A stretch of DNA of 38,475 nucleotides from Lentilactobacillus dabitei. GTDB lineage: Bacteria; Bacillota; Bacilli; Lactobacillales; Lactobacillaceae. Position 1 is the stretch's first letter, and each line of letters starts with the position of its first letter. The translations under genes were made by a program, and so were the position numbers. The DNA lies in contig NZ_JAHPPD010000013.1 in NCBI RefSeq assembly GCF_019061365.1, positions 1 through 38,475 on the forward strand, given 5' to 3'. Shown one piece after another: positions 4,293 to 20,718 of this stretch. The notes below the pieces were generated by a model, which was not told the DNA's origin, searched no databases, and saw only the letters and a list, made by a program, of their open reading frames with translations.

Positions 4293-4683
4293 TGGTGTAA
4301 ATCCTGAGTAATTGCGGTCGTATTATTACGGCTGAGGAAAGTCCATTCTCGCACAGGCTGAGATGCCTGTAGTGATCGTGCTCGGTGAAAAAATAAGCCG
4401 GGGGACTCTTAATTGAGTTACGGCGGAACAAGCAGCTAAGGCTTTGCTATGCTGTTTGTTCCCTAAGGTGCCACAGTGACGAACAATGTAGGAAACTATA
4501 TTGATGGAACGCGGTAAACCCCTCGAGCGGGAAACCCAAACTTTGGTAGGGGAGCTTCACACACGGTAAATGAACCAAGTGTGGGGGAGAGGTCCTTGTG
4601 ACTTCTCAGATAGATGATTACTACTTGCTTTATCGTCCTGGGATAAAGTAAGCACAAAACATGGCTTATAGGGATTTACACCA
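4293..4683 (+). ncRNA. rnpB: RNase P RNA, class B (Bacillus type)
   Basis: Catalytic RNA subunit of the enzyme that matures tRNA 5' ends. The conserved elements appear in order: GAGGAAAGTCC at 4334-4344, TCGCACAGGCTGAGATGCC-type sequence near 4350, GGTGCCACAGTGACG near 4467, GGAACGCGGTAAACCCCTCG near 4506, and ACAAAACATGGCTTA near 4655. The ends are set by the P1 pairing of TGGTGTAAATCC (from 4293) with GGGATTTACACCA (to 4683). A strong terminator follows at once. Position between gpsB and ypsC is conserved in Bacillus-like genomes. Confidence 0.96.
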
Positions 4684-10076: not shown

Positions 10077-10985
10077 TTGAAAACAGTTGTATTAACCGAA
10101 CATACCGGGCGACTTGATAAAGTGGTTTCAGAGATTGATACCACAATTAGTCGCTCTCGGGCAAAAAAATTAATTGAAGATGGTCACATCAAGGTCAATG
10201 GGCAACTTAAGAAGCCTAAATACCATGCAGAAGTGGGTGACCAAATTGACATTGAGGATATTGAACCCACACCAATCAGCTTGGAACCAGAAAACATTCC
10301 CTTGGATATCATTTACGAAGATGATGATGTCATTGTCGTCAATAAACCCCAAGGAATGGTCGTTCATCCATCAGCGGGTCATCCCAACCACACACTAGTC
10401 AACGCACTACTGTTTCATAGTCCATTATCAACGATTAACGGGGAGTTTCGCCCCGGAATCGTTCACCGAATTGATAAGGACACCTCAGGTTTGTTAATGG
10501 TCGCCAAAAACGACGCAGCTCATCAAGCGTTATCGGAACAATTAAAGAAACAAAAAAATTTGAGAAAGTACATTGCGTTAGTTCACGGTCGGATTGATGA
10601 AAATTCCGGGGTTGTCAATGCTCCAATTGGCCGCTCTGTTAAAGATCGTAAAAAACAGGCAGTTGTTGCTGATGGGCGACCTGCGATTACCCATTTTAAG
10701 GTGCTCGAGCGTTTTCAAGATTACACATTAATCAGTTGTCAACTTGAGACTGGTCGAACTCACCAGATTAGAGTCCATATGAAATATATTGGCCATCCAA
10801 TTGCCGGCGACCCACTTTATGGCCCCCGAAAGACCCTCAAGGGGAATGGTCAGTTCTTACATGCTCAGGAATTGGGATTTGAGCACCCGGTGACGGACAA
10901 GTTAATGGTCTTTTCAGCCCCGATTCCAACGATTTTTGAGAAAACTTTGGCTCATTTACGGCTGAATAATGCGTTGAATTCTTGA
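10077..10985 (+). CDS. rluD: 23S rRNA pseudouridine synthase, RluD family
   Basis: Converts uridines to pseudouridine in 23S rRNA. About 303 residues: an N-terminal S4 RNA-binding domain (ISRSRAKKLIEDGHIKVNG) then the RluA-family catalytic domain with HRIDKDTSG, the catalytic Asp being D133, and the conserved ETGRTHQIRVH. The start is ambiguous: the frame opens inside lspA, but a TTG at 10077 has GAGGA 11 nt upstream and gives the normal family N-terminus. Part of the lspA-rluD-pyrR row. Confidence 0.9.
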   Translation: MKTVVLTEHTGRLDKVVSEIDTTISRSRAKKLIEDGHIKVNGQLKKPKYHAEVGDQIDIEDIEPTPISLEPENIPLDIIYEDDDVIVVNKPQGMVVHPSAGHPNHTLVNALLFHSPLSTINGEFRPGIVHRIDKDTSGLLMVAKNDAAHQALSEQLKKQKNLRKYIALVHGRIDENSGVVNAPIGRSVKDRKKQAVVADGRPAITHFKVLERFQDYTLISCQLETGRTHQIRVHMKYIGHPIAGDPLYGPRKTLKGNGQFLHAQELGFEHPVTDKLMVFSAPIPTIFEKTLAHLRLNNALNS

Positions 10986-11066
10986 CAAGTTGGCTCAGCT
11001 CTCATATTCTGAAACTAACATGCTTTTTCGGTTTATAAAACCTTACACTAATTTAAGGAGCACTTG

Positions 11067-11603
11067 ATGATGGGAAAAATTATTTTAGACAAAATGGCGA
11101 TGCAACGTGCTTTAACCCGGATCACATATGAAATTGTTGAAAAAAACAAGGGTGTTGAAGACCTCGTCCTCATTGGGATCAAAACGCGGGGGATTTTTCT
11201 CGCCAATCGCATTGCCGACCGGCTGCAACAATTAGAAAATGTCACCATTCCAGTAGGTGAACTCGATATCACGAATTATCGGGACGATATTGAACACGAT
11301 TCAATGAGTATCGACGTCAAAATGTCCAATAATAAGATTGATTTTTCAATTGAAGGCAAGCGGGTGATTCTAGTCGATGATGTTTTATACACAGGCAGAA
11401 CCGTTCGAGCTGCTCTTTCGGCTGTTATGGACCTTGGCAGGCCTAAGAGCATTAATCTCGCAGTTTTAGTCGACCGCGGTCATCGTGAATTGCCAATTCG
11501 CGCCGACTTTGTGGGTAAAAACATTCCAAGTTCACAAAAAGAGCAAATCAAAGTATACGTATCGGAAATTGATGATAAAGATGCTGTTGAACTCATCAAA
11601 TGA
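11067..11603 (+). CDS. pyrR: PyrR, pyrimidine regulator / uracil phosphoribosyltransferase
   Basis: RNA-binding attenuator of pyr operons that senses UMP and PRPP, with weak uracil phosphoribosyltransferase activity. About 178 residues. The PRPP loop [13 protein letters not shown] (about residues 100-112) is intact, as are [15 protein letters not shown] and [23 protein letters not shown] at 11055-11060 precedes two tandem ATGs; I chose the first. No PyrR-binding attenuator is evident in the 80-bp gap upstream or the 22-bp gap to the next gene, so targets are likely elsewhere. It heads an apparent operon with two degenerate carbamoyl-phosphate synthase homologues. Confidence 0.95.
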
Positions 11604-11625
11604 TACTTAGTAATGGGGAGTCAGC

Positions 11626-12717
11626 ATGACGCAAAGATATTTGATATTAGAAGATGGATCTGCGTACCCTGGTAAGGCATTCGGTTCATTAGCGACAACA
11701 ACTGGAGAACTGGTTGCCAATTCAACGATGAATGGCTACCAGGAAATCATCTCCAACCAAATTTACCACAACCAAATAATTGTTTTTACCCAATCATCAA
11801 TTGGCAATACCGGACTCGACCAAAACGCGTACGAGTCCATTTTGCCATCTGCTAAAGGCGTGATTGTTCGTGAATATGAGAATCTGGCAACTGACCACTT
11901 TAAGCGAATTTCGTTGGATCGTTATTTGAAACAGCATAAGATTCCCGGTATTTATGATGTAGATACCCGTGAACTTCGTCACCGACTCCAGAAATACGGT
12001 AATATGAAAGCCAGCATTGTTGACGTGGCAGATGATCATGCATTCGATCAGCTGCATGCCACTGTTTTAACGAATCAACAAGTCGCCCAGGTTGCAACAC
12101 CGAAACCTTATCCCAATCCTGATGAGGGGGATAACGTTGTTGTGGTTGACTTTGGCCTCAAAAGTGGAATTTTGCGTGAACTATCCCGCAGAAATTGCAA
12201 CGTAACGGTTGTGCCTTGGAATGCATCCAGTGAGATGATCCTTGACTTAGATCCAGATGGGATTGTTTTATCAACTGGCCCTGGGGCACCGTCGAATTTG
12301 CCACAGTCCGTTCTAAAGATGATTGAAGAAGTTCAAAGCCAAGCGCCGTTATTTGCTATTGGGTTGGGTCATGAATTATTCGCTTTGGCGAACGATGCCA
12401 GTGTTTACCAACTTAGAGTTGAGCATCACGGGGCCAACCATCCAATTCGTGAAATTATCACAAATGAAATCTTTTATTCCGGTCAGGAACAAGGATATGC
12501 GGTTGATCCCAAGTCAATTGATCACGCAAAATTATTTATTACCCACATTGATTTAGTTAATGGTACGGTTCAGGGGCTTCGTCACCGTGATTTTCCGGCC
12601 TTTTCAGTTCAATTTTCACCTGATGGGGCACCGGGACCTAAAGATAGTGTTGGCTTGTTTGATGACTTCACGGAAATAATGGAAAGAAGAAGGGTCGACA
12701 ATGGCAATAGTTTTTAA
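11626..12717 (+). CDS. carA: CarA homologue (CPS small subunit) lacking the glutaminase triad
   Basis: A 363-residue protein collinear with CarA/PyrAA, normally the glutamine amidotransferase subunit of carbamoyl-phosphate synthase. The N-terminal domain is well kept (LILEDGSAYPGKAFG, NSTMNGYQEI, DVDTRELRHRL) and the class I amidotransferase domain is recognisable (DGIVLSTGPGAP, HHGANHP, QGYAVD). The catalytic residues are gone: the nucleophile Cys of GICLGHQ is Gly246 (AIGLGHE), and the His and Glu of the HPE motif are Ser331 and Asp333 (FSPDGAPGP). Glutamine hydrolysis should be impossible. The reading frame is intact and its end overlaps the CarB homologue by 17 bp, suggesting translational coupling. 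Annotation pipelines would name it carA; I infer a non-catalytic role. Confidence 0.85.
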   Translation: MTQRYLILEDGSAYPGKAFGSLATTTGELVANSTMNGYQEIISNQIYHNQIIVFTQSSIGNTGLDQNAYESILPSAKGVIVREYENLATDHFKRISLDRYLKQHKIPGIYDVDTRELRHRLQKYGNMKASIVDVADDHAFDQLHATVLTNQQVAQVATPKPYPNPDEGDNVVVVDFGLKSGILRELSRRNCNVTVVPWNASSEMILDLDPDGIVLSTGPGAPSNLPQSVLKMIEEVQSQAPLFAIGLGHELFALANDASVYQLRVEHHGANHPIREIITNEIFYSGQEQGYAVDPKSIDHAKLFITHIDLVNGTVQGLRHRDFPAFSVQFSPDGAPGPKDSVGLFDDFTEIMERRRVDNGNSF

Positions 12718-15199
12718 TAAAGTCCTATTACTAGGTGGTGGCCCAACAAGTATTGGTCACGAAAATGAGCTCGATGCGGCCGCTTTTGAGCGATTAATTG
12801 CCCTGCGAAAAACGGGTGCTCAAATTATTTATGTCGATGATAATCCGTTCTCGGTCACTAGTGAAGAAATTCAGCCTGCCAACGTTTATGTTCAGCAGGT
12901 CAATTTCAAAAATGTTGTGAACATTATTGAGAAGGAACAGCCGGATGCAATTATGGCCACGACGGGTGGGTTAAATGCGATGCAAATTGCCTGGCAGTTG
13001 TCAGAAAGTGGCGTGTTAAGTGCCAATAACGTGACATTGCTTGGCATTAAGCCAGCAGATTTGCGTAAAGTCATCGATAATCAGAAATTACGAGATTTGC
13101 TGACCGAAATCAGTGAGAAAGTGATTGCTTCCAAAATTGTCGCTGACGATAGTGAAGCAATGGATTTTGTCCGCGAAGTCGGCTTCCCAGTTATTGTAAA
13201 GCCAATTTCAGCTAGCCATGATACCAGCCGGTTCATTTGTAACAATACCGATGAACTAGAAGATGCCCTAGACGTGAGCTTTAAACGAACTTATATTAAA
13301 CGCTGTTCGATTGAACAAAGTATTGTTGGTTATAAAGAAATTGAAATGGTTGGTGTTCGGGATACCAACGGAAATAAAATGTTGATTACTGGTTTGGAAG
13401 ACATGGATCCAATTGGAATTCATTCTGGTGATTCAATCATTTTTGCCCCAACCCAGACATTAATTAACGAAGAATATCAAGCACTGCGAACAGCTACTTT
13501 TCGAATTATGGATGCGCTTAATGTGACGGGAACTTGTCATGTCCAATTTGCCCAGAGTAGAACGGATTCAAATTATTTTGTCACCAAAGTTAGCCCTTTC
13601 TTTACTCGGAATACTTTGTTGGCAGCTAAGGCAACCGGTTATCCATTAACCTACGTTTCAAGCTTTTTGGAATTAGGCTATACTTTCACAGAGATTAAAC
13701 TGCCTACGAAATATAGCAAATATCTTCCATTCATGGAACCAACGATGGATCACGTACTGGTTAGAATTCCTCTCTGGCCATTTAGGGATATCAATGACGT
13801 TGATCAACATCTCAATACCCTAATGAAATCGGTAGGGTCGACAATCGGGGTTGGCAGAACCGTTGAGGAAGCGATTATCAAGTCCATGCATAGCTCCCAG
13901 TTTTCACCAAGGGATATTCTTCCGAGTGTGTCTAAAGTTGATGACGATGATGTGATCAATCAATTAATTCACCCGTTGGCCAGCAGAATATTGATCTTAA
14001 TGGAAGCACTAAGAAGAGGCTTCTCAATTGACGAGTTATCTGAACTGACCCGAATTGATCGTTTTTATTTCTATAAGCTCAATCAATTATTACGGGCTCA
14101 GGACTATGTGATTAATAACCCAATGTCGCCGCATTCGGTTCAGGTTGGTCACAAATACGGTTTTGGTGATGGTATGCTAGCCGAGCTATGGAATGTAAAC
14201 ATTTCTGAAATCACTCGAATGAATCGAAATACCAAGCAACCAGTGACTTATAAAGAAATCGAACCAAGTGCTGGGGAATTCATAGAAGCAACCAATATTT
14301 TTTACAGCAGCTATGAACTTGAAAATGAAAGTCAACCATTTTCCGGCAAAACAGCCTTAGTAATTGGCAGAGGTGGCAACCAGTTGGGACCCAATTCTGC
14401 AGCTGATTATTATACGACTCAAATCCTTATATCGCTTAAAAAAGCCGGTTACAAAACAATCATTATGAATACCAATCCCAATGCAGTTTCACTTACGCCT
14501 CAGTTGAGTGACAAGCAATACATTGAGCCGATCCAATTGGGAAACATTTTGAATATTATTAATGTTGATCAGCCTGACGTGGTTTTCCTACCAGGAAATC
14601 GGCATTATCTTTCAAAACAGTTAAAACAGTTCACTGGCTTAAATATGGTCGTTTTGCCGCCAGATCAAAAGGTTGCCATATACAAAGAACAAGAAGCGAC
14701 AGCGGCAGTTGATCTGTTCATTCAGGACGACGAAATTATTCCTGTCACGACGCTTTCGTTTTTCAACCATAACAATCGGATGGATCTCCATCATATTAAT
14801 GATTATCAAGAACCCATGAGTCACTGGGAAACTGATGAACAGTCATTGATTAAGCAGGCGATTAGTTCAGTGGATCCAACTGAATGGCAGGGCCTCGTAC
14901 AAGTATTATTTGATCAATCAGGATCTGAGTACACATGCACAGGGATTCGGCCCGTTCGAATTACTGAAACAGCTTTTTTAACTAAGACGACAGGGGTTAA
15001 CTGGATTAATGTATTGGTTCGAAAATATCTTGGGCTGCTTGATATGGCATCTTTGAGGGAACAGTTACGACCGGCTGAGCATAAGCGTTATTCAATTATG
15101 ACTGCCAAGTTCCCATTTAAAGAACTCCAGTCTAATCGTCAAGAGGGAACCACGAAACAGGAGGTTGGCGCATCTTTATCATTTAAAAATTTTGAATAG
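12701..15199 (+). CDS. carB: Shortened, probably inactive CarB homologue (CPS large subunit)
   Basis: An 832-residue protein homologous to CarB/PyrAB, which is usually about 1060. The order is: first pre-ATP-grasp domain (LLLGGGPTSIGHENE), first ATP-grasp, the central oligomerisation region, second pre-ATP-grasp (LVIGRGGNQLGPNSAADYY), a shrunken second ATP-grasp, then the end. In the first ATP-grasp the glycine-rich loop is replaced (residues 169-178, no glycine) and the metal-binding E-x-N-P-R motif reads K296-V-S298-P-F300. The second ATP-grasp has lost some 60 residues and its E-x-N-P-R. The C-terminal allosteric (MGS-like) domain is absent. GIHSGDSI and KATGYP remain. Open throughout, no frameshift; it looks like a pseudoenzyme. 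Confidence 0.85.
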   Translation: MAIVFNKVLLLGGGPTSIGHENELDAAAFERLIALRKTGAQIIYVDDNPFSVTSEEIQPANVYVQQVNFKNVVNIIEKEQPDAIMATTGGLNAMQIAWQLSESGVLSANNVTLLGIKPADLRKVIDNQKLRDLLTEISEKVIASKIVADDSEAMDFVREVGFPVIVKPISASHDTSRFICNNTDELEDALDVSFKRTYIKRCSIEQSIVGYKEIEMVGVRDTNGNKMLITGLEDMDPIGIHSGDSIIFAPTQTLINEEYQALRTATFRIMDALNVTGTCHVQFAQSRTDSNYFVTKVSPFFTRNTLLAAKATGYPLTYVSSFLELGYTFTEIKLPTKYSKYLPFMEPTMDHVLVRIPLWPFRDINDVDQHLNTLMKSVGSTIGVGRTVEEAIIKSMHSSQFSPRDILPSVSKVDDDDVINQLIHPLASRILILMEALRRGFSIDELSELTRIDRFYFYKLNQLLRAQDYVINNPMSPHSVQVGHKYGFGDGMLAELWNVNISEITRMNRNTKQPVTYKEIEPSAGEFIEATNIFYSSYELENESQPFSGKTALVIGRGGNQLGPNSAADYYTTQILISLKKAGYKTIIMNTNPNAVSLTPQLSDKQYIEPIQLGNILNIINVDQPDVVFLPGNRHYLSKQLKQFTGLNMVVLPPDQKVAIYKEQEATAAVDLFIQDDEIIPVTTLSFFNHNNRMDLHHINDYQEPMSHWETDEQSLIKQAISSVDPTEWQGLVQVLFDQSGSEYTCTGIRPVRITETAFLTKTTGVNWINVLVRKYLGLLDMASLREQLRPAEHKRYSIMTAKFPFKELQSNRQEGTTKQEVGASLSFKNFE

Positions 15200-15220
15200 T
15201 CAATCAATTGTATATAGCAA

Positions 15221-15263
15221 ATAGTGGCTGAACCAGACAATTTCCATCTGGTTCAGCCACTAT
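15221..15263. terminator. Long hairpin between convergent carB and rqcH
   Basis: A 17-bp perfect inverted repeat (ATAGTGGCTGAACCAGA and its complement) with a 9-nt loop lies between two convergent genes, the usual place for a bidirectional terminator. Neither side has a clear T-run, so termination is inferred from position and stem strength. Confidence 0.7.
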
Positions 15264-15274
15264 GTTATCCTGAA

Positions 15275-18486: not shown

Positions 18487-18528
18487 ATTTGAATATGATA
18501 AGCTTTAATAGTTACATAATTAAATATT

Positions 18529-18629
18529 GGGGTAGGATTCAATGCGTTAAGTGTCGAAGGAACGGAATGTGAACTTCGAACGAAAGCTAAAGAGCTTCGA
18601 CTTGTTCTTTAACTGCGGTGTTGTTTCCG
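18529..18629 (+). promoter_or_regulatory. Tetrahydrofolate riboswitch (folT motif)
   Basis: The conserved core GCGTTAAGTG is at 18544-18553. It is followed by a perfect hairpin TCGAAG / CTTCGA whose loop carries GGAACGGAATGTGAA, then CGAAAGCTAAAGAGCT, and the closing GCGGTG near 18615. P1 can form between CAAT (18540-18543) and GTTG, and GG with CC further out. This is the class that senses reduced folates, and the gene downstream is a folate transporter. AATGCG (18541-18546) can instead pair with CGCATT (18628-18633), a possible alternative state. Confidence 0.9.
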
Positions 18630-18668
18630 CATTCACCAGCTTATTTAGACATTCTAAATAGTGGTGAG

Positions 18669-18682
18669 CTCCTTTAGAGGAG
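18669..18682 (+). promoter_or_regulatory. Shine-Dalgarno-sequestering hairpin before folT
   Basis: CTCCT (18669-18673) pairs perfectly with AGGAG (18678-18682), the ribosome binding site of folT, leaving a TTAG loop. Just upstream CACCA / TGGTG enclose another hairpin ATTTAGA / TCTAAAT (18634-18666). This arrangement is consistent with a translational expression platform for the riboswitch. Confidence 0.65.
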
Positions 18683-18693
18683 ATGTCAGCATT

Positions 18694-19224
18694 ATGAAGT
18701 CATTATCACTAGGTTTTAGGAAGCTCAGAACATTGGATGTTGTCGTGTTAGGTGTCTTAATGGCACTTGCGCTGATATTGGGTCGATTTACGGTTGGAAC
18801 CCAATTTATGAGACTGAGCTTTGGCTTTATCGTAGTTGCAATCACCAGTTACTTATATGGACCATTGTGGTCTTCAACGACGGCAGCATTGGGTGATATT
18901 ATTGGGACGCTTATTTCTGGCAGTCCATACTTTCCTGGTTTCACTGTTTCTGCTATTTTGGGAGCGGCCATTTATGGTTTCTTTTTCTACAACAAGGAAA
19001 TCACTTGGAAACGTGTTATTGTGTCTCAGCTGATCATTGCTGTCCTTGTGAATGCGGTCTTGAATACATTTTGGCTAACGGTTCTTTACAAAACGCCTTT
19101 CTTCGGGTTGCTACCAATGAGAACATTGAAGGAAGTTATTATCACTCCAATTCAAATCGCAATTTTATACTTTATTATGAATTCGAAATCATTTGAGATG
19201 ATTAAAAATCGCCTCTTAAATTGA
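18694..19224 (+). CDS. folT: Folate ECF transporter substrate-binding (S) component FolT
   Basis: Membrane S-component that binds folate and works with a shared EcfA-EcfA'-EcfT module encoded elsewhere. The protein has about six hydrophobic segments and the S-component signature near the first helix (LGVLMALALILGRFTVG, then RLSFGFIVVAITSYLYGP), and ends KSFEMIKNRLLN. I use the ATG at 18694, 11 nt after AGGAG, giving 176 residues; the GTG at 18661 precedes the ribosome binding site. The riboswitch upstream and the folate genes downstream support folate as substrate. A terminator separates it from folB. Confidence 0.93.
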   Translation: MKSLSLGFRKLRTLDVVVLGVLMALALILGRFTVGTQFMRLSFGFIVVAITSYLYGPLWSSTTAALGDIIGTLISGSPYFPGFTVSAILGAAIYGFFFYNKEITWKRVIVSQLIIAVLVNAVLNTFWLTVLYKTPFFGLLPMRTLKEVIITPIQIAILYFIMNSKSFEMIKNRLLN

Positions 19225-19312: not shown

Positions 19313-19660
19313 ATGTACACAATCAAGTTAAATAATATGGCGTTTCATTCACATATTGGTGTTTTACCAGAAGAGCAGGTGGTGGGGCAATCACTTCAGA
19401 TTGATTTGATTACGCAAATTGAGGCGGACCCCAAGCACGATGAGTTGGCAACGACTGTTTCTTACGGCGACTTTTATCAAAAGGTGCAAACCATTGTCAC
19501 CAATCAGCACGTTAAACTAATCGAAACTCTGGCTCAGATGATCATCATCCAAATTAAGACATTGGATCCCCGAATCGGAAAAACAACTGTTAGAATCAGA
19601 AAACTTGGGCTGCCGATTGATGGCGTCCTAGACAGTGTTGAAATTGAAATGGAGGATTAA
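19313..19660 (+). CDS. folB: Dihydroneopterin aldolase
   Basis: Converts 7,8-dihydroneopterin to 6-hydroxymethyl-7,8-dihydropterin and glycolaldehyde, mid-way in folate synthesis. The 115-residue length is typical. It begins IKLNNMAFHSHIGVLPEEQ with the conserved active-site glutamate, continues with TVSYGDFYQKV and HVKLIETLA, and ends with the catalytic lysine region RIRKLGLPIDGVLDSV. AAGGAG precedes the ATG. First gene of folB-folKE-folC-folP; its stop overlaps the folKE start region. Confidence 0.95.
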   Translation: MYTIKLNNMAFHSHIGVLPEEQVVGQSLQIDLITQIEADPKHDELATTVSYGDFYQKVQTIVTNQHVKLIETLAQMIIIQIKTLDPRIGKTTVRIRKLGLPIDGVLDSVEIEMED

Positions 19661-20718
19661 TGATGGAAGAAGTTTATTTAAGTCTGGGAAGTAACATTGG
19701 TAATCGGCAACGTTATATTAATAACGCGATTCAAATGCTTGGCAATAATTCCCAAATTATCATTGACGATGTCGCAAGCTACTATGAAACATCACCAGTT
19801 GGTAATGTTTCTCAGCGATCGTTTATTAATACGGCGGTGAAAATCACCACTAATCTTGATCCAGAATCATTATTAAGTGTGATTCACACCATTGAAAAGA
19901 GTCTTCGGCGAACACGAAAAGTTCATTGGGGACCCCGGACGTTAGATATTGATATTATCTTTTATGGAAACCAAGTGATCAATAGTGACGATTTACAGAT
20001 TCCTCACCCAGAAACATTTAACCGAAAATTTGTGCTTGTTCCAGTTAAACAATTAATCCAACGGACATTCCCGTACTACGAACAAATCAATACAGCTATT
20101 TCAAAGCTTGATTCCCAAGAGCAACGATTAACCAAAGTTCCAGATACTGATAATAGTCAAGATACCATTGAAAAAGCAATTACCGATATTCTGGCAGCAA
20201 TTGGAGACGATCCACAACGTGACGGGCTCGTTGAGACACCTAATCGGGTGAGTCGTATGTATAGCGAAATCTTTTCTTCAGTAGGATTGAAAGATTTTTC
20301 AGATTATAAATTGTTCCATTCTGAAGAATCTGGCAAGTCTAAAATGGTGATCATGAACCACATTCCATTTTATTCAATGTGTGAGCATCACCTGATGCCA
20401 TTTTTTGGGACCGTTAATGTGGCTTACGTTCCAAATAACGGAACCATTATTGGACTGAGTAAGATCCCCAGACTAGTTGATTTTGTATCACACAAGTTAA
20501 CATTGCAAGAACAAGTAACGGATGATATTCTTGATCAACTGAATCAAATTCTGTCACCTAAAGGAGTCGCAGTCGTGATTGATGCCCGCCACATGTGTGT
20601 TGAAATGCGGGGAGTTAAGAAATCCGGCTCAACAACAAGAACAGTCCGGTTTGATGGTGATTTTGATGATAACGCACCACTGCAAAACGAATTTTTGAGC
20701 TCAATTGAGGTAAACTAA
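19660..20718 (+). CDS. folKE: Bifunctional FolK-FolE fusion (HPPK and GTP cyclohydrolase I)
   Basis: Two folate enzymes in one 352-residue chain. Residues 1 to about 160 are hydroxymethyldihydropterin pyrophosphokinase (YLSLGSNIGNR, VHWGPRTLDIDIIFYG, IPHPETFNRKFVL). From about 165 on is GTP cyclohydrolase I, with the zinc and catalytic motif CEHH (C241, H243, H244) and the second zinc cysteine region ARHMCVEMRGVKKSGS. The enzymes catalyse the first and a later step of pterin synthesis. A folKE fusion is also known in Lactococcus lactis. The first ATG overlaps the folB stop; a second ATG three bases on is better spaced from GGAGG. Confidence 0.95.
   Translation: MMEEVYLSLGSNIGNRQRYINNAIQMLGNNSQIIIDDVASYYETSPVGNVSQRSFINTAVKITTNLDPESLLSVIHTIEKSLRRTRKVHWGPRTLDIDIIFYGNQVINSDDLQIPHPETFNRKFVLVPVKQLIQRTFPYYEQINTAISKLDSQEQRLTKVPDTDNSQDTIEKAITDILAAIGDDPQRDGLVETPNRVSRMYSEIFSSVGLKDFSDYKLFHSEESGKSKMVIMNHIPFYSMCEHHLMPFFGTVNVAYVPNNGTIIGLSKIPRLVDFVSHKLTLQEQVTDDILDQLNQILSPKGVAVVIDARHMCVEMRGVKKSGSTTRTVRFDGDFDDNAPLQNEFLSSIEVN

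Follow-up and report, generated by a model that had tools for sequence, protein, structure and literature searches.

What maintains two genes for carbamoyl-phosphate synthase (CPS) subunits whose products appear to have lost their chemistry? The question is raised by a 38,475-nucleotide stretch of Lentilactobacillus dabitei DNA (contig NZ_JAHPPD010000013.1, positions 1 to 38,475 of the forward strand; hereafter the window), in which homologues of the small and large CPS subunits, here termed psA and psB, follow the regulator gene pyrR. Judged from sequence and predicted structure, psA-psB is a pseudoenzyme that has kept a CPS-like fold, lost its catalytic residues and evolved under purifying selection, and it is now probably a sensor or regulator. 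Our preferred reading, to which we give a rough probability of 0.4, is that the two proteins would form a CPS-shaped complex, non-catalytic and remodelled at its ligand site, that acts in PyrR- and uracil-linked pyrimidine control. An earlier analysis of the same DNA (the original prediction) had taken the pair for the remnant of a pyr operon kept for a non-catalytic task; as a whole, this interpretation is partly supported.

The five genes lspA-rluD-pyrR-psA-psB share one orientation; beyond psB lie a strong hairpin and then a convergent rqcH-like gene. The description of psA and psB as long, uninterrupted CarA and CarB homologues agrees with the coordinates: psA starts 22 bp after pyrR, the two frames overlap by 17 bp and neither contains an internal stop. 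The features concerned are as follows.

11067..11603, + strand: pyrR, intact bifunctional regulator / uracil phosphoribosyltransferase by profile
11626..12717, + strand: psA, pseudo carbamoyl-phosphate synthase small subunit, 363 aa
12701..15199, + strand: psB, truncated pseudo carbamoyl-phosphate synthase large subunit, 832 aa
12361..12363, + strand: psA codon 246, catalytic Cys to Gly (alignments)
12616..12618, + strand: psA codon 331, catalytic His to Ser (alignments)
13211..13237, + strand: psB residues 171-179, Gly-rich ATP loop changed to ASHDTSRFI (alignment)
13586..13609, + strand: psB residues 296-303, EVNPRVSR changed to KVSPFFTR, with Mg ligand E299 replaced by Lys (alignment)
14651..15112, + strand: shrunken synthetase-2 ATP-grasp remnant, with no allosteric domain downstream (alignment)

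Catalytic residues of psA and psB

The CarA profile TIGR01368 matches the whole of psA at 347.6 bits, above its cut-off of 307.35, so that annotation or pathway reconstruction could credit these bacteria with a CPS that would not work. Alignments revealed the substitutions C269 to Gly246, H353 to Ser331, H312 to Gln289 and Q273 to Glu250, in E. coli numbering; this numbering of CarA and CarB and the roles of the listed residues, mapped by alignment, are what we take them to be from the literature. The position of Cys269 is occupied by Gly in 49/49 psA rows checked, a count that leaves aside the degenerate row of genome G033, which has Cys; all 24 rows labelled intact keep the Cys, with G033 itself sitting among them in both the residue and the site-conservation comparisons. 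The acid of the psA triad, which had also been counted as lost, is in place: Asp333 is the usual residue, found as D in 20 of the 24 rows used as intact. The predicted structure of psA has a predicted local distance difference test (pLDDT) score of 78.2 and superimposes on E. coli CarA (1cs0_B) with a template modelling (TM) score of 0.91 by query length.

The large subunit is more heavily altered. Against TIGR01369, psB scores 536 bits and does not reach the cut-off of 1027, covering only profile positions 7-634, and it has 832 residues compared to about 1020-1071 in intact rows. In E. coli numbering, R129 is replaced by Asn127, R169 by Lys167, the Gly-rich loop by HDTSR, N283 by His280, E299 by Lys296, N301 by Ser298 and R303 by Phe300; the nucleotide-site residues E215, H243, Q285 and R306 are retained in the window. 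Similar proteins form a truncated class, delimited by score and by an open frame of 820-901 aa. Among the 27 rows of this class whose residues were inspected, drawn from 21 genera, G176 is replaced by Arg (Arg177 of psB) in 26/27 rows, and the E299 position is Lys in 25 and Arg in two. The synthetase-2 ATP-grasp is mostly deleted, with no second ATP-grasp matched by Pfam in psB, and both Pfam and the alignment lack the C-terminal allosteric domain. Nevertheless, the AlphaFold model of psB has a pLDDT of 89.0 and a TM score of 0.87 to E. coli CarB (1c30_A), by query length. The claim that both subunits have lost residues needed for their chemistry thus stands, for the Cys and His of psA and for the Mg/ATP residues of psB, and homology predicts that the pair can carry out neither the glutaminase reaction nor either of the two phosphorylations.

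A new or residual reaction, such as that of another ligase or an ammonia- or bicarbonate-dependent partial reaction, would agree with the retained predicted fold and with the EVNPR and GGTGGG motifs that persist in one genus (g21). It is nonetheless improbable that the pair is still an enzyme, given the Lys or Arg at E299 and the loss of Gly176 in the 27-row class, together with the loss of both CarA catalytic residues.

Spread, origin and retention of the pair

The original prediction had proposed a search for orthologues in related Lactobacillaceae, and in a sample of 151 Lactobacillaceae genomes from 40 genera (g, genus; G, genome; L, locus; C, contig) the dead pair was found in 105. The truncated-class protein occurs in 82 genomes of 21 genera; another 23 genomes, in all of which residues were read, carry either a more diverged dead class of about 800 aa (12 genomes of g4, g9 and g35) or full-length degenerate pairs (11 genomes of g14, g21, g40, g17 and g33). 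One of the 82 truncated-class matches, and no other, has an in-frame TAA (G120:C15:11732-14257). In G029 the carB of a pyr operon is split (L160 4882-8079) into frames of 853 aa, with intact motifs, and 207 aa; the 853-aa frame was left out of the truncated-class count, as its catalytic motifs are intact and it is interrupted near its end. Five genomes (G043, G047, G035, G069 and G102) have pyrB over cut-off, yet their sole CarB-like match is the diverged dead one; their carbamoyl phosphate may be supplied by arginine deiminase. Among 118 genomes of the order, 87 gave a match at E<=1e-80, 15 of them Lactobacillaceae, and 31 gave none; the other 72 matches were all at least 1057 aa long, so the truncated form was not found outside the family by this search, which a strongly diverged form would escape.

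The gene order between rluD and rqcH points to the source of the pair. In G123 (g33), whose rqcH is split into two frames, this slot holds pyrR, a uracil-permease-like gene and pyrB-pyrC-carA-carB-pyrK-pyrD-pyrF-pyrE. In g21, g40 and three of the five g14 loci it holds pyrR, the uracil-permease-like gene and psA-psB with a full-length psB, an order seen in L120-L125, L162 and, across two contigs, G033; other genes separate rluD from pyrR in G089. The permease name reflects a best profile below its own cut-off and above that of the NCS2 superfamily, checked in one such protein. The g21 psB retains the synthetase-1 motifs EVNPR and GGTGGG and has lost those of synthetase 2, with the Cys of psA gone as well, and g14 has lost E299. 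The truncated class shows the shortest arrangement, rluD-pyrR-psA-psB. Since stripped intermediates and a full pyr operon occupy the same slot, the origin as a stripped-down pyr remnant, put forward in the original prediction, is borne out: descent of psA-psB from the CPS of an ancestral pyr operon between rluD and rqcH is well supported by these sequence comparisons.

Whether the stripping happened once is less uniform across the data. A branch with support 99 sets 40 dead rows apart in the tree of CarB, albeit with long-branch and odd-composition warnings, whereas support for the same grouping in the CarA tree is only 29; three near-duplicate rows were left out of each tree. G033 (g33) has a full-length degenerate carA-carB after a uracil-permease-like gene (L153 8237-12561), apparently in the same slot, to judge from two contig ends, with the Cys kept and the His and Mg ligands lost. 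The 79% identity between the CarA proteins of G033 and G123, two genomes of one genus, suggests a second stripping of independent origin. An approximately unbiased test did not reject a single dead clade including G033, with p 0.34 for CarB (near-duplicates, g37_G124, g40_G040, g26, g5 and g28 left out) and 0.30 for CarA (duplicates, g37_G124, g40_G040, int_own and int_g4_G128 left out); in the smaller CarA set, the remaining dead rows need two changes, and holding them together was not worse.

Within Lentilactobacillus, 17 loci show the same three genes, the same 17-bp overlap and no stops, and psA was found in 24/24 genomes of the genus; in five of the 24, one of them 88% complete, it is the sole CarA-like match at E<=1e-60. 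Compared with L. rapi, the window differs at 12, 25 and 87 nucleotides in pyrR, psA and psB, and at 0, 3 and 10 amino acids, respectively, giving nonsynonymous to synonymous rate ratios (dN/dS, Nei-Gojobori) of 0.037 for psA and 0.033 for psB. The selection argument rests on this pair because dS is saturated in many of the other comparisons. In addition, dN of psA lies below that of rluD, lspA and rqcH in 12/13 pairs. Columns of the former active sites, which were chosen by the analyst, are more conserved than the rest of the class, with random draws as high in 116/5000 cases for psB and 43/5000 for psA, and still less conserved than in intact CPS; by these alignments the former sites are not noise.

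Slow decay of a redundant pyr remnant would accord with the in-frame stop of G120, 1 in 82, and with the faster change seen in the C-terminal part of psB. It was rejected, as an extremely unlikely account, on the dN/dS of about 0.03 in the closest pair, the presence of psA in every one of the 24 Lentilactobacillus genomes and the fixation of the same residues across 21 genera. The earlier view that the pair is kept rather than decaying is therefore upheld.

Link to PyrR and the proposed role

By profile and motifs, the L. dabitei PyrR is a normal one. It scores 268 bits against an equivalog cut-off of 218, contains the phosphoribosyl pyrophosphate (PRPP) loop and the LVDRGHREL motif, and is the only PyrR match in the genome at E<=1e-30; an alternative TTG start lies 3 bases upstream of 11067. 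Across the sample, PyrR was found in 104/105 genomes with the pair and in 38/46 without it (Fisher p 3e-4, kinship ignored). In all four g10 genomes sampled, the PyrR-like match contains one TGA:

G009:C1:1093581-1094057: PyrR-like match with TGA
G106:C1:1065027-1065503: PyrR-like match with TGA
G048:C5:11043-11516: PyrR-like match with TGA
G079:C31:8602-9075: PyrR-like match with TGA

When the TGA-bearing frames of three g10 genomes are counted as PyrR, Fisher p becomes 0.01. Outside Lentilactobacillus, pyrR lies upstream of the pair, directly or with a permease gene between, in 34/38 loci; this adjacency is partly selected at L116, L130 and L132, three of the 38, and likewise at L163 and L164, because these were fetched by the position of PyrR. 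A PyrR-binding motif stands just 5' of pyrR in 6 of the 38 loci (all four scanned g14 loci, the g19 locus and one of two in g35), the motif itself having been derived from a mixed-strand alignment of PyrR sites that served no other purpose; a weak covariance match of 40 bits precedes pyrR of G021, and in G013, which lacks the pathway, a PyrR RNA site lies upstream of a uracil-permease-like gene. PyrR-linked sensing or regulation, one of the tasks imagined at the outset, is plausible.

The pair is not tied to the pathway in the same way. A pyrB over cut-off is missing in 25/151 genomes, 20 of which have the dead pair, and 19 of these 20 contain no other CarB-like match (E<=1e-60 in truncated-class genomes, 14/15 without match; E<=1e-30 in the others, 5/5), so the pair needs no CPS, aspartate transcarbamoylase (ATCase) or pathway. 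Presence of the pair and of pyrB are not associated (Fisher p 0.24), with pyrB in 85/105 pair-bearing genomes.

These counts bear on the idea that psA-psB serves the true CPS, or ATCase, as a regulatory or scaffold partner. The original prediction had asked whether the genome holds a second, intact carAB, and it does: on contig C112, adjoining pyrB, with the checked motifs intact. That copy, the pyrB of those 85 genomes and inactive dihydroorotase precedents (available part of PMC6245113; title of a work cited in PMC6022934) speak for such a partnership. We consider it very unlikely, given the 20 pair-bearing genomes without pyrB, the 19 of them without another CarB-like match and the missing association with pyrB; binding to the true CPS, as suggested earlier, fails as a general role for the same 19 genomes and for the five Lentilactobacillus genomes with psA only.

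A somewhat less remote alternative, still on the unlikely side, is that the pair works independently of PyrR, in uracil uptake via the permease or together with rluD, lspA or rqcH, and that PyrR is a mere old neighbour. It draws on G017, on g3 and g6, where the pair remains beside rluD without pyrR, and on the uracil-permease-like gene inside the operon in 6/18 loci of one locus set. G017 (g17, 87% complete) has the order rluD-psA-psB-rqcH and lacks a PyrR match above 20 bits, a pyrB over cut-off and any further CarB-like match; its dead pair (L161 3140-7405) is full-length and directly follows rluD. A strict rule that the pair always occurs with PyrR was dropped on account of this genome. Against an independent role stand the PyrR found somewhere in 104/105 pair-bearing genomes and the chance that the PyrR of G017 sits in the missing part of its assembly, which contains a weak PyrR RNA match of 33.8 bits, below the gathering score.

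In the preferred reading of PyrR-linked control, psA and psB would still form a CarA-CarB-shaped complex without chemistry. In the truncated class, the old synthetase-1 ATP site would be rebuilt to hold a nucleotide or another anion without magnesium, a proposal made because the Mg/ATP residues are mostly gone, Lys296 and Arg177 are near-fixed, and E215, H243 and Q285 are mostly kept. The liganded pair might then adjust how PyrR controls uracil uptake and the pyrimidine genes, by contacting either PyrR itself or the uracil permease. Complex formation, ligand, partner and direction of effect are all features that we infer.

Several points weigh against this reading. The association with PyrR may partly reflect shared ancestry, its p value being uncorrected for kinship; G017 carries the pair without a detectable PyrR, and pyrR is not beside the pair in 4/38 loci (L064, L066, L067 and L128, of g3 and g6). 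No PyrR-binding motif was found before pyrR in the window or in the 17 Lentilactobacillus loci, and the Rfam scan of the window for PyrR-binding RNA gave no match. The nine rows of the deeper class lack Lys296 and Arg177, which means that not every pair has the rebuilt site, and psB evolves faster than psA.

A broader proposal, that a biosynthetic complex of both subunits became a ligand-sensing co-regulator of its own former operon early in the family and outlived the pathway, is doubtful; the degenerate full-length pair of G033 suggests that a non-catalytic role of this kind was already present in living CPS-P. A sensor of bicarbonate or nucleotide would fit the retained half of CPS. If the regulatory reading were true, a sensor would have evolved from a metabolic enzyme inside its own operon, with intermediates surviving in living genera, and the sensing of pyrimidine or CO2 supply in lactobacilli would become testable by deletion.

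Neighbouring features and comparison with known systems

Other features of the region are as follows.

10982..11010, + strand: promoter-like site before pyrR, 10/12 matches
15214..15268, strand unassigned: hairpin between psB and the convergent gene, -31.5 kcal/mol, z -9.3
4300-4673: Bacterial RNase P class B RNA gene
18526-18640: tetrahydrofolate (THF) riboswitch, directly upstream of the next gene
18661-19224: small membrane protein, by eye resembling the S component of a folate energy-coupling factor (ECF) transporter
19660-20718: single frame of 352 aa, by eye HPPK (FolK) fused to GTP cyclohydrolase I (FolE)

Taken over the entire region, promoter-like sites are no more numerous than in its shuffled versions. 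The hairpin is a probable two-way terminator and was not among the matches of the terminator scan of the region. A PyrR RNA match of 44.5 bits, below the gathering score, also adjoins the C112 carAB.

No description of such a pair was found in the titles and abstract starts of the searched literature, a scope outside which most subscription papers fall. Compared to glutamine-dependent CPS (CarA/CarB, PyrAa/PyrAb), psA-psB shares predicted folds, gene order, the small overlap, the place after pyrR and a homology that spans psA entirely and roughly 630 aa of psB. It differs in having no glutaminase Cys/His, in the loss of the Mg/ATP residues, in a gutted synthetase 2 and in the absent allosteric domain, and also in context, occurring in genomes with an intact carAB or with none. 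The pyr operon pyrR-pyrP-pyrB-pyrC-pyrAa-pyrAb-pyrK-pyrD-pyrF-pyrE is complete in the G123 slot, whereas the window keeps pyrR and two dead subunits.

In Lactiplantibacillus plantarum, PyrR2 mediates an inorganic-carbon-dependent control of pyr; according to the available part of that source, a PyrR is thereby tied experimentally to the supply of carbon dioxide, which lies on the substrate side of CPS (PMC3582564). In Lactobacillus acetotolerans under ethanol, pyrR and uraA rise with the pyr genes, as given in the accessible portion of PMC5453994. Similar in kind are the inactive dihydroorotase subunits or domains retained in Pseudomonas putida and yeast URA2 (PMC6245113, in part; a reference title in PMC6022934), which likewise represent a dead pyrimidine enzyme that is kept. 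As far as these partial sources go, the inactive dihydroorotases accompany ATCase, whereas psA-psB persists in genomes without detectable pyrB.

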